NCBI RefSeq assembly: GCF_008274585.1
Contig: NZ_VTRT01000004.1
Span: forward strand, 62,001 to 126,000
Direction of reading: 5' to 3'
Source of the DNA: Pedobacter sp. BS3
GTDB lineage: Bacteria > Bacteroidota > Bacteroidia > Sphingobacteriales > Sphingobacteriaceae
Length of the DNA stretch: 64,000 bases
The notes under the pieces: model-generated
Database searches by the model: none
Seen by the model: only the letters and a program-made list of their open reading frames with translations
What the model was told of the DNA's origin: nothing
Program-made: the position numbers and the translations under genes
In this document: one piece after another, positions 43,423-45,980 of the stretch
Layout of the letters: every line of letters begins with the position of its first letter
Numbering within the stretch: position 1 is the stretch's first letter

Positions 43423-44274
43423 TTACAGGATTATTTTTTCGATGGGCATTACCACGATGCCTTGTGCCCCGGCATTTTTCAGGCTGCTGATGCGCTCCCA
43501 GAAATCCTTTTCGGGAATAACGGTGTGCACGGCGCTCCAGCCTTCTTCGGCCAGTGGGACAACTGTTGGACTTTTAATGCCGGGCAACAGCGTTTTAATG
43601 GTATCCAGGTTTTTATTTTCGGCATTGAGTACCACGTACTTGGTTTCTTTGGCCCGTAATACCGATTGTACACGCTGGATAAGCTCCTGCGTAAGCGGAT
43701 TATTTTCTTCGCCTTTACGGCCAATCAGTATGGCTTCTGATTTCAGTACATCCGCAAAGGCTTGTAATCCGTTGCTTTTTAACGTGCCGCCAGTTGATAC
43801 CAAATCGCAAATGGCGTTGCTCATGCCTAATCCGGGAGCAATTTCTACCGAGCCGGAAATGGTACGGATATCGGCTGTTATGTTATTCTTCGCCAGGAAT
43901 CTTTTAAGTATCGATGGGTACGAGGTGGCAATGGCCTTACCGTTCAGGTCGGCTATGGTTTTGATATCGCTGTTAACCGGTATCGCCAGCTTTAATGAGC
44001 ATTTGCCGTAGCCCAGCCGTTGCAGGTAGGCTACATCCACTTCGGTTTCTTCAATAACGTTTTCGCCTACGATTCCCAAATCGGCAATGCCATCCTGAAC
44101 GTATTCCGGGATATCGTCATCGCGAAGAAAAAGAATTTCTAACGGGAAATTAGATACAGGAGATATCAGCGAGCTTTTATAGTTTTCAAAGCTAAGACCG
44201 CAGTTTTTTAGAAGTTCCACCGATTTTTCATTTAATCTGCCGGACTTCTGAATAGCTATTTTTAATGTTTTCAA
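43423..44274 (-). CDS. hisG: ATP phosphoribosyltransferase (long form)
   Basis: HisG joins ATP and PRPP, the first and feedback-controlled step. The 283-residue long form has the two-domain catalytic part (IAIQKSGRLNEKSVELLKNC, DIPEYVQDGIADLGIVGENV, the PRPP loop ISGSVEIAPGLGMSNAICDL) and a C-terminal ACT-like domain (about 210-283) that binds histidine. So it can be regulated by end product without HisZ. Start is TTG 44274, 65 nt after a His-rich leader reading frame. Confidence 0.95.
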   Translation of the reverse strand: MKTLKIAIQKSGRLNEKSVELLKNCGLSFENYKSSLISPVSNFPLEILFLRDDDIPEYVQDGIADLGIVGENVIEETEVDVAYLQRLGYGKCSLKLAIPVNSDIKTIADLNGKAIATSYPSILKRFLAKNNITADIRTISGSVEIAPGLGMSNAICDLVSTGGTLKSNGLQAFADVLKSEAILIGRKGEENNPLTQELIQRVQSVLRAKETKYVVLNAENKNLDTIKTLLPGIKSPTVVPLAEEGWSAVHTVIPEKDFWERISSLKNAGAQGIVVMPIEKIIL

Positions 44275-44319
44275 TGTGTTTTATTTAATCAGACCAATAA
44301 TTTATTACATACTCTTGCT

Positions 44320-44379
44320 TCACGTAGAAACATACAATTTTACCTATCGCCCACCGGGCGATGATGAAAATGTACGTGA
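44320..44379 (-). promoter_or_regulatory. Mutually structured leader RNA of the his operon
   Basis: On the minus strand a 7-bp hairpin ATCGCCC-GGT-GGGCGAT (44362-44346) starts within the last His codon of the leader peptide. A second 7-bp pairing joins TCACGTA (44379-44373, covering His-Val codons) to TACGTGA (44326-44320). A ribosome waiting at the His codons would break the outer stem. No T-run follows, so this is not a standard terminator-type attenuator. Confidence 0.55.
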
Positions 44380-44399
44380 TGTGTGAACAGTACTGGCAT
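44340..44399 (-). CDS. Histidine-rich leader peptide of the his operon
   Basis: A 19-codon reading frame, MPVLFTHHVHFHHRPVGDR, then TAA. Five of residues 7-13 are His (codons CAT CAC GTA CAT TTT CAT CAT). It lies between a consensus promoter (about 25 nt upstream) and hisG (65 nt downstream), where attenuator leader peptides sit. Translation speed through the His codons would report charged tRNA-His. This is a sequence-based call by analogy with enterobacterial his leaders; no homologue was looked up. Confidence 0.8.
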   Translation of the reverse strand: MPVLFTHHVHFHHRPVGDR

Positions 44400-44431
44400 G
44401 TTATTTGGTTCCTGATTCAATGTCGGGAGCG

Positions 44432-44462
44432 CAAATATACGCCCACGCCATCCAAAAACAAA
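44432..44462 (-). promoter_or_regulatory. Promoter of the histidine operon
   Basis: TATATTTG at 44439-44432 matches the -7 box TAnnTTTG, and TTTG at 44462-44459 is the -33 box, 19 nt apart, inside the usual Bacteroidota range. Transcription should start near 44425, about 25 nt before the leader ATG. Confidence 0.75.
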
Positions 44463-44504
44463 ATTAATTTTAGAATAACCCTGTACAAAACACAAAAAGT
44501 GTCC

Positions 44505-45980
44505 ATGAAAAAGAACATCCTGATTTTATTTGCCGCCTTTGCCTTGCTGGCAATAGTAGCTTCCTGTAAAAAGCCCAAATCTGATATTGGCGGTATTTTG
44601 TTCAAAGAAAGCCGAAATAAGATTTTTAAACGTGTTGATTTGGATGATTATGCTGCTGTGTTCGACAGCGTGTTAAAAGCGGAGAAAAAAAATCTTACCA
44701 ATCCAGTTACTATCCGTAAGTTCTACCAGGATAATGAGAACGATGCGTATTTTATTGCGCATTTTGCTCCGAAAGAGCATTTAAAAACTTTGCTGGATTA
44801 TTATGCGAAGGCTCCCGAACATGGTTTGAGCCCGGATTATTTCAATTACACTGAATTGAAACCCCTGATAGACAAATTGTATGATAAGCATGCTATTAAA
44901 ACCGTGAATGAAGCTTACCGGGTTATTGCCCACACGGAATTATTGGTAGCTAACTCGCTGCTCAATTACTCATCGGCAATACAATTTGGTGTGGTAAACC
45001 CGCGAAAAACGTTTTCACGATATTATATGAAGACCGCCCGTCCCGACAGTGCGTTTTATCAGCAGGTATTTACCGTTCAGGATGTAAAATCATACCTGGA
45101 TAGTATTCAGCCGAAAAGCTCAGCGTATATAAAAATACAGGACGCGTTGAAGAATAATACCGTTTATCAGGGGCTTACTGCTGAAGAAACACGTAAAACG
45201 TTCGAATTGGCGCTTGAGCGGTTGCGTTGGCGTAATAAACCTTCGGCCAAACGTTATGTGTGGGTAAATATTGCCGATTTTACCCTGCACTATTTTGAAA
45301 ACGGTGCGGAGAAATTATCGATGAAAGTATGCGCAGGCAAAGGGCCTGACCAGGAAGACGGTCCGCATAATCACCAAACCCCGCAACTAAGCAGCGAAAT
45401 TTATAATGCGCAGGTAAACCCGGTATGGAATATTCCGCAAAGTATTGCCAAGAATGAAATCCTGGAGCATGTGAAGGCCGACCCGTATTACCTGGTAAAC
45501 AACGGCATTAATGTGTATGCTAAAAGCGGCGAAAAACTGGATGCGGAATCGATAGACTGGTCGTCGGTCTCAGCTTCGGATATGCCATACAAGTTTAAGC
45601 AGGCGCCGGGCAATGAAAATTCGCTGGGACGAATTAAGTTTCAGTTTCCTAACGGAAGCAGCGTTTACCTGCACGATACTCCGGCGCAGGAACCGTTTAA
45701 AATGCAGGTACGGGCGGTAAGTCATGGGTGTGTGCGGGTTGAAAAACCGCTGGAGCTGGCACGGGCATTATACGGTGATGGTAAGAAATTTCAACTTATT
45801 GAGAAGGAAATGAACGAAGATATTCCTACCGTTAACGATATCGCTTTAACGCCCAAAGTCCCGGTTTACCTGGATTATATGCCGTGTTTTGTGGATAGCC
45901 GGGGAAATATCAGGATTGTGCCTGATGTGTACAAGCTGGATGCCATTTTATATAACCGAATGAAGCAAGTGCTTTATTAG
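44505..45980 (+). CDS. L,D-transpeptidase (YkuD domain), lipoprotein
   Basis: A 491-residue murein cross-linking enzyme of the YcbB/LdtD-like group. The signal ends in LLAIVASC (lipobox, Cys about residue 21). A helical N-terminal part (about 90-250) precedes the YkuD domain (about 265-450), with WVNIADFTLHYFENG, the capping loop, and the active site VSHGCVRVEKPLELARAL with Cys409. ATG 44505 is chosen; codons upstream of it cross the divergent his promoter. It stands alone. Confidence 0.9.
   Translation: MKKNILILFAAFALLAIVASCKKPKSDIGGILFKESRNKIFKRVDLDDYAAVFDSVLKAEKKNLTNPVTIRKFYQDNENDAYFIAHFAPKEHLKTLLDYYAKAPEHGLSPDYFNYTELKPLIDKLYDKHAIKTVNEAYRVIAHTELLVANSLLNYSSAIQFGVVNPRKTFSRYYMKTARPDSAFYQQVFTVQDVKSYLDSIQPKSSAYIKIQDALKNNTVYQGLTAEETRKTFELALERLRWRNKPSAKRYVWVNIADFTLHYFENGAEKLSMKVCAGKGPDQEDGPHNHQTPQLSSEIYNAQVNPVWNIPQSIAKNEILEHVKADPYYLVNNGINVYAKSGEKLDAESIDWSSVSASDMPYKFKQAPGNENSLGRIKFQFPNGSSVYLHDTPAQEPFKMQVRAVSHGCVRVEKPLELARALYGDGKKFQLIEKEMNEDIPTVNDIALTPKVPVYLDYMPCFVDSRGNIRIVPDVYKLDAILYNRMKQVLY

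Follow-up and report, generated by a model that had tools for sequence, protein, structure and literature searches.

A conserved His-codon leader without a terminator upstream of hisG in Sphingobacteriaceae: a candidate for attenuation at translation initiation

The histidine operon of Pedobacter sp. BS3, located in a 64,000-nt stretch of genomic DNA that was analysed as a whole (hereafter, the window), is preceded by a His-rich leader frame and by RNA pairings that recur across the Sphingobacteriaceae. Drawing on comparative sequence analysis, we favour, with moderate confidence, the reading that this region would be a His-codon leader-peptide attenuator acting on the initiation of hisG translation—not on a terminator. 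The family leader thus appears to be a variant of leader-peptide control, the new part of which would be a long-range pairing (termed P0) combined with a weak hisG start, in place of a terminator.

The leader, its promoter and hisG all lie on the minus strand of the window, in the following arrangement:

44432..44463, minus strand: promoter, with TTTTG (44463-44459), a 19-nt spacer and TATATTTG (44439-44432)
44340..44399, minus strand: leader ORF MPVLFTHHVHFHHRPVGDR, 19 codons, ATG at 44399, TAA stop, His codons at positions 7, 8, 10, 12 and 13
43423..44274, minus strand: hisG, start codon TTG at 44274, NCBIfam match above cut-off
43418-42126, minus strand: hisD, downstream of hisG, NCBIfam match above cut-off
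42104-41052, minus strand: hisC, downstream of hisD, NCBIfam match above cut-off

The frames following hisC in the same direction were read by eye, and we take them to be hisB, H, A, F and IE. By HisG, the named close relatives of this strain are Daejeonella, Paradesertivirga, Desertivirga, Arcticibacter, Mucilaginibacter and Pedobacter, which agrees with Sphingobacteriaceae, the family in the lineage of Mucilaginibacter. A first-pass annotation, which named no strand, had proposed a promoter (TTTG, 19 nt, TATATTTG) ahead of a TTG-started hisG, and both were confirmed (TTTG ending at 44459, TTG at 44274); the 19-codon leader that it described, with five His in residues 7-13, likewise stands as written. 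The promoter upstream of the leader is of the Bacteroidota type, and transcription was assumed in our folds to start about 5 nt downstream of TATATTTG; in Flavobacterium psychrophilum, TAnnTTTG is reported as the -7 box in the accessible text of the transcriptome study (PMC9723704). For the leader RNA (44426-44265), the predicted folding energy is -38 kcal/mol (z -2.5), with 3 of 200 dinucleotide shuffles equally stable. On the plus strand, the mechanical ORF of a divergent gene (44361-45980) extends into the leader; that gene probably starts at the ATG at 44505, and its C-terminal part is L,D-transpeptidase-like with a score below the curated cut-off.

We found hisG in 282 of the 301 Sphingobacteriaceae genomes searched and assembled a family set of 110 hisG upstream regions covering 20 genera (30 from searches and 80 fetched for genus spread), alongside 58 hisG upstream regions from elsewhere in the class, here the class of the genome collection, which comprises many other families (58/59 other-family genomes with a hisG match; a match was absent in 76 of 139 genomes). 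The His-rich leader is present at 107 of the 110 family loci—106 detected by an ORF scan within 300 nt, plus L070, whose leader at -347 was recovered by a covariance model and by eye. The three loci left without a leader (L051, L058 and L060) belong to genomes of 1.5-2.3 Mb. A chance frame could be rejected on two counts, namely this recurrence and the fact that MPVLFTHHVHFHHRPVGDR is the only one among the window's 1395 ATG frames with lengths of 5-45 aa (771 on the plus and 624 on the minus strand) to have at least four His in nine residues. His occupies codon 7 in 79, codon 8 in 78, codon 10 in 90, codon 12 in 91 and codon 13 in 98 of the 106 scanned leaders (74-92% at each position), with both His codons in use. 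Moreover, the leader core measures 29, 32, 35 or 38 in 70 of 70 aligned leaders, and because these lengths differ by multiples of 3, the frame is kept. Judged from these comparisons, the leader frame and its His positions appear clearly to be under coding constraint. Elsewhere in the class, a frame with at least four His in nine residues occurs at 42 of the 58 hisG loci.

Within and just beyond the leader frame, two hairpins and an alternative pairing can be drawn:

44346..44362, minus strand: P2, hairpin ATCGCCC-GGT-GGGCGAT, beginning in the last His codon, where the leader ORF nears its end
44331-44317, minus strand: P3, hairpin GTTTC-TACGT-GAAGC, downstream of the leader stop
44371..44388, minus strand: His-codon strand of H1/H2 (GTTCAC and ACGTACA), alternative to P3
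44317..44336, minus strand: post-stop strand of H1/H2 (TGTATGT and GTGAAGC), within which P3 also folds

These hairpins were evaluated in an alignment (A1) of 70 of 104 leaders, the 34 omitted by hand being mostly near relatives but including the three divergent loci of genus g2. The 7-bp hairpin said by the first-pass annotation to start in the last His codon corresponds to P2, which covaries in the 70 leaders: 97.1% of its cells are paired, and a G-C pair becomes A-U in 10. The expectation that relatives would carry a His-rich frame together with a covarying stem is therefore borne out. Behind P2, the family displays GTTTC-TACGT-GAAAC and variants of it as P3, with 99.1% of cells paired and a loop-adjacent pair that 55 of the 70 leaders have as C-G and 14 as G-C. 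Taken together, 754 of 769 cells in P2 and P3 (98.0%) are standard pairs and 45 are double-change cells (vs 8.6 in shuffles); structures slid along the alignment were only 33-56% paired. P3 and P0, neither of which figured in the first-pass annotation, are the best-supported features besides P2. A second ORF read by eye downstream of the leader stop, MFLRE(T/I), was rejected because its ATGTTTC occurs in only 41 of 106 leaders while the P3 hairpin persists. L006 (genus g22) is an exception in that no stop follows P2, so that its leader frame of 33 codons extends to 26 nt before hisG.

The covariance model built on P2 and P3 from A1 recovered 35 of the 40 family loci outside the alignment at E 0.01, many of them near relatives of its rows, and missed L051, L058, L060, L061 and L078. 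With 150 candidates scored at E up to 10, the genome of strain BS3 yielded a single match, at hisG, and hence no further copy of the element. In a class sample run with the stricter filters of Infernal, 5 of 149 genomes matched, all five of them Sphingobacteriaceae, while among the 144 that did not match, the family was known for 20; on the other-family hisG loci, the model gave 2 weak matches in 58 (L161 and L163). A known Rfam element was rejected as well: neither the window nor ten his-leader loci (five from the family and five of the terminator type from other families) matched Rfam at the gathering score, and raising E up to 5 added nothing beyond four snoRNA models that scored far under threshold. 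The U, A and C of the P3 loop (window 44326-44324, minus strand) are each kept in at least 90% of the 70 leaders, pairing itself needing the stem alone. A protein or another ligand that binds the conserved P2/P3 element, with the leader peptide in a secondary role, might account for these loop letters, for which no structural reason was found; it would leave the clear coding constraint on the frame and His positions unexplained, and we hold it to be the most improbable of the readings considered.

The His-codon strand of the leader could also pair downstream. Across 104 loci in 17 genera (L006 and L078 omitted), H1/H2 partners pair better with their own strand than across genera (-11.3 vs -9.3), and 0 of 5000 permutations were as low. 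Treated as fixed columns, H1 and H2 have 79% and 70% of their cells paired, so that the support is for a flexible pairing, next to a P3 that covaries strongly; P3 and H1 use the same letters and would exclude each other. The first-pass annotation had drawn a 7-bp pairing of the first His-Val codons with a segment after the leader stop. This pairing does exist in the window (TCACGTA with TACGTGA) but is complete in 11 of the 70 leaders only, with at least 5 pairs in 42 of the 70, and was discarded as the core of the element; what covaries between genera is a looser pairing of the His strand. That earlier interpretation is partly supported: it holds for the leader, for P2 and for the missing terminator, and lacks support in detail for the exact 7-bp pairing.

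The absence of a terminator sets the family leaders apart from those of other families. Scanning for hairpins at or below -8 kcal/mol with a T-run behind them (loops of 3-9 nt at hisG and 3-12 nt at trpE) called a terminator between leader and hisG at 1 of 110 Sphingobacteriaceae loci, the sole call being P2 itself, against 46 of 58 other-family loci, with 0.2 and 0.1 expected from shuffles, respectively. The scan was negative in the window, where the first-pass annotation had already remarked on the lack of a T-run, and a general terminator tool found no terminator-like site at 44200-44520. His leaders followed by classical terminators are widespread before hisG in the other families (L112-L169, e.g., L116, L122 and L128). 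As a control, we examined 16 full-length trpE loci from 19 Sphingobacteriaceae genomes searched: all 16 have a terminator and an ATG start, and 15 have an upstream frame with at least two Trp. Trp-rich leader frames and intrinsic terminators lie before trpE across the family (L250-L268), the genome of strain BS3 included, in which the frame MSTTIHTKSWWWQGNHTFAGQLYAY is followed by GCCCGACG...CGTCGGGCTTTTT (L263). The Sphingobacteriaceae have lost the his terminator, not attenuation terminators in general. The ilvD operon proved uninformative as a test, with one terminator and three Ile/Leu/Val-rich frames at 13 loci (11 of them from Sphingobacteriaceae). Classical transcription attenuation through an undetected or unusual intrinsic terminator, evidently the mechanism of the other-family his leaders and of trpE in this family, could find some further support in a T7 seen by eye after P3 in some species of genus g13; given a scan that passes a single family locus, and none in the window, we regard it as highly improbable.

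Rho-dependent attenuation would dispense with an intrinsic terminator altogether: translation of the leader would decide on Rho loading onto leader or early hisG RNA, and the hairpins and P0 would set Rho access. A CCCC stretch follows the leader in 32 of 106 family leaders, and Rho has been proposed for some terminator-less leaders of Actinobacteria, as far as the accessible text goes (PMC1262725). However, this stretch is missing from most leaders, including that of the window, and Rho alone would explain neither the TTG and GTG starts of hisG nor the targeting of the pre-hisG stretch by P0; we therefore consider this route unlikely, albeit with some standing.

The hisG start itself is unusual in the family. 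The codon aligned with it is TTG at 73 and GTG at 25 of the 110 loci (98 together) and ATG at 12, ten of which fall in genera g15 and g3; an in-frame ATG at any position up to +30 was found at 13 of 110 family loci vs 55 of 58 in other families. At L109, an ATG lies 72 nt upstream of the aligned start. In 95 of 106 loci, 53-88 nt separate the leader stop from the hisG start; in g15 and most of g3, the ATG-started hisG follows the stop at 100-170 nt (in one case about 287). In g3, inspection by eye of L069, L070, L072, L073 and L074 suggests that P0 and a TTGAA resembling the old start are kept in the usual place, with the ATG-started hisG about 70-240 nt further downstream. The start-codon change and the loss of the terminator may represent one ancestral event, which is why their association should not be counted as independent in each species.

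The second distinctive component is P0, which joins the 5' UTR to the stretch in front of hisG:

44404..44418, minus strand: 5' arm of P0 (arm A), GAATCAGGAACCAAA, just upstream of the leader ATG, in a predicted duplex
44286..44298, minus strand: 3' arm of P0 (arm A'), ATTGGTCTGATTA, ending 11 nt upstream of the TTG of hisG
5' UTR 44431-44400, minus strand: P1, a weak local 5' hairpin (TCC..GGA) in the fold, sharing part of the 5' arm of P0

The sequence of P0 varies between lineages and its complementarity is kept within them, as exemplified by TTTAATCAGgaACC/GGTCTGATTAAA, TACTATA/TATAGTA, ATTATTAATAA/TTATTAATAAT and TTATTAAAAAGAC/GTCTTTTAATAA. Since L067 and L078 lack a promoter match, 104 of the 106 loci with a leader entered the test, in which own pairing averaged -10.9 kcal/mol over 18 genera vs -8.2 (sd 0.43) in permuted pairs, with 0 of 5000 permutations as low. 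Composition makes up part of this signal but not all of its z of -6.3, because control partners reach only -0.9 (hisG codons 2-16), -2.8 (the P2 region) and -1.6 (DNA upstream of the promoter). Per locus, the effect is modest—18% (5' side) or 28% (3' side) of the 104 outdo 95% of cross-genus partners—and neither in g14 nor in g3 was own pairing better than cross pairing. No clear P0 emerged in 35 other-family loci (-4.7 vs -4.3 kcal/mol, fraction 0.06). In many loci P0 ends about 7-16 nt before hisG; it overlaps the start codon of 8 of the 19 g13 loci, ends 14-31 nt before hisG in g16 (14 loci) and lies farther off also in g15 and most of g3. P1 is on average more stable than shuffles (-3.9 vs -2.2; among the best tenth in 40 of 88) and, by eye, overlaps arm A in many lineages. 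Most of 12 minimum-energy folds are a single extended rod, capped by P2 and closed at its base by P0, whereas that of L028 is branched and forms P3; the leader in the window also folds as a rod.

Because weak hisG start codons coincide with pairing in front of hisG, control at the level of translation, which the first-pass annotation had raised as an alternative to the classical terminator, is favoured, and the output step probably lies there. In the accessible part of a study of F. johnsoniae, pairing around -20 to +20 helps to tune initiation (PMC6847099), which makes start-region pairing a plausible handle for control.

Folding with ribosome masks lends mixed support to such a mechanism. 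Expected P0 pairs over the 104 loci amount to 12.5 in the free RNA and to 10.1, 11.3 and 12.3 with a ribosome at His7, His12 or the stop, and fall to 2.2 with a ribosome at the leader start and to 1.2 when two ribosomes are queued. From about -20 to +11 of hisG, the mean unpaired fraction remained at 0.57-0.58 in these 104 loci, no mask changing the value. The mean energy for opening hisG in 96 loci (8 of the 104 were dropped for long spacing) is 7.9 kcal/mol in free RNA, 7.1 with a ribosome at His7, 7.7 at His12 and 7.8 at the stop, compared to 5.5 with a ribosome at the leader start or a queue and 5.0 for the post-leader RNA on its own. A drop of at least 2 kcal/mol occurs in 23 of 96 loci with the His7 ribosome and in 51 of 96 with the queued pair. 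For the window, the corresponding energies are 10.2 (free), 7.4 (His7), 8.6 (His12), 9.4 (stop), 4.3 (leader start), 4.8 (queued pair) and 5.2 kcal/mol (RNA after the leader alone). When the 5' UTR was swapped for those of other genera, the opening cost came down to 6.2, the native UTR giving the higher value in 67 of 96 loci; in g16 (14 loci), the closing effect of P0 is absent, at 4.4 kcal/mol free. A simple scheme in which a stall opens P0 by thermodynamics alone is thus weak, as the mean opening energy barely changes when one ribosome is placed at His7 or His12; a ribosome near the leader start keeping P0 open fits the masked folds better. That stalling opens hisG is what we infer, with weak support from folding.

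Under translational attenuation as favoured here, enough histidine would let ribosomes clear the leader, and arm A would pair with arm A' in P0, a helix that in many cases runs on into H1/H2 and P2, closing the hisG initiation region so that its weak start would rarely be used; the loss of hisG translation could possibly expose the message to Rho. When His-tRNA runs short, ribosomes would remain on the leader, the His-codon strand would be occupied and P3 would replace H1/H2. Ribosomes on the leader would keep arm A from A'—most strongly with a following ribosome at the leader start behind the stalled one—and hisG would stay open to translation. Alternatively, the leader could mainly boost hisG translation or couple it to its own, by reinitiation or by ribosome hand-over via P0, with no histidine sensing involved. 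The spacing of 53-88 nt between leader stop and weak start, and a P0 that brings the two starts together, are compatible with coupling, and leader genes have been argued to act in reinitiation (PMC4833913, accessible text); yet the Bacteroidetes peak given there is 11-14 bp, far shorter than the his leader spacing. The five fixed His codon positions, the His-rich leaders before hisG across the class and the Trp-rich frame before trpE in the same genome speak against coupling as well, and we deem it improbable.

The leader resembles the enterobacterial his attenuator (hisL; Rfam His_leader) in its short ORF with a His codon cluster before hisG, and in E. coli hisL the His codons occupy similar codon positions. 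It differs in having neither a terminator nor a U-run and in its lack of an Rfam match, and we know of no counterpart to P0 and the weak hisG start in the enterobacterial system. With the other-family leaders of the class it shares the His leader before hisG; their terminators, ATG starts and near-complete lack of P2+P3 matches set them apart. As in the translational attenuation systems ermC/cat and secM-secA, translating the leader is proposed to make the start of the following gene accessible; the his signal would be a shortage of His-tRNA, not a drug or secretion. The nearest precedent found for a leader base stem covering a start region is the LEU element upstream of leuA in Actinobacteria, which, in the accessible text, likewise comprises an amino-acid leader ORF in a conserved RNA, a base stem over the start region of the structural gene and no classical attenuator (PMC1262725). 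In LEU, it is the codon run itself that binds the Shine-Dalgarno box, a pseudoknot is involved, and mutating the codons had no or inconsistent effect (PMC1262725). In contrast, the base stem of the family leader uses the 5' UTR, in a host phylum without Shine-Dalgarno sequences, and no pairing of the codon run with the downstream start region was found: the His-codon strand pairs with the post-stop strand, and the 5' UTR with the pre-hisG stretch.

Related elements have been glimpsed elsewhere in the phylum. The accessible text of the F. psychrophilum transcriptome study mentions strong clues that amino-acid operons are preceded by leader-peptide attenuators, and lists a structured 5' element upstream of hisG that is kept in other Flavobacteriaceae and has no Rfam match (PMC9723704), and a map of B. 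thetaiotaomicron mentions leader-like sORFs in general (PMC7366714, accessible text). In the accessible text of a study of Bacteroidota his genes, the word leader does not occur and attenuation is mentioned once, for enterobacteria (PMC8305728). We found no description of the Sphingobacteriaceae his-leader architecture in the accessible portions of the open-licence literature.

Bacteroidota are a phylum lacking Shine-Dalgarno sequences. It is conceivable, though we put this forward tentatively, that the Sphingobacteriaceae rebuilt an ancestral transcription-terminating his attenuator as a translational one without a Shine-Dalgarno sequence, in which the 5' end and the hisG start region would hold each other shut and queued leader ribosomes would serve as a wedge at low histidine. 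A single class would then show the output stage of an attenuator being swapped—the terminator lost, start-region pairing and a weak start gained, and the His-codon sensor kept—with the trp attenuators of the Sphingobacteriaceae as an unchanged control. If true, this would provide a natural, testable case of amino-acid control at the level of translation in a phylum of this kind.
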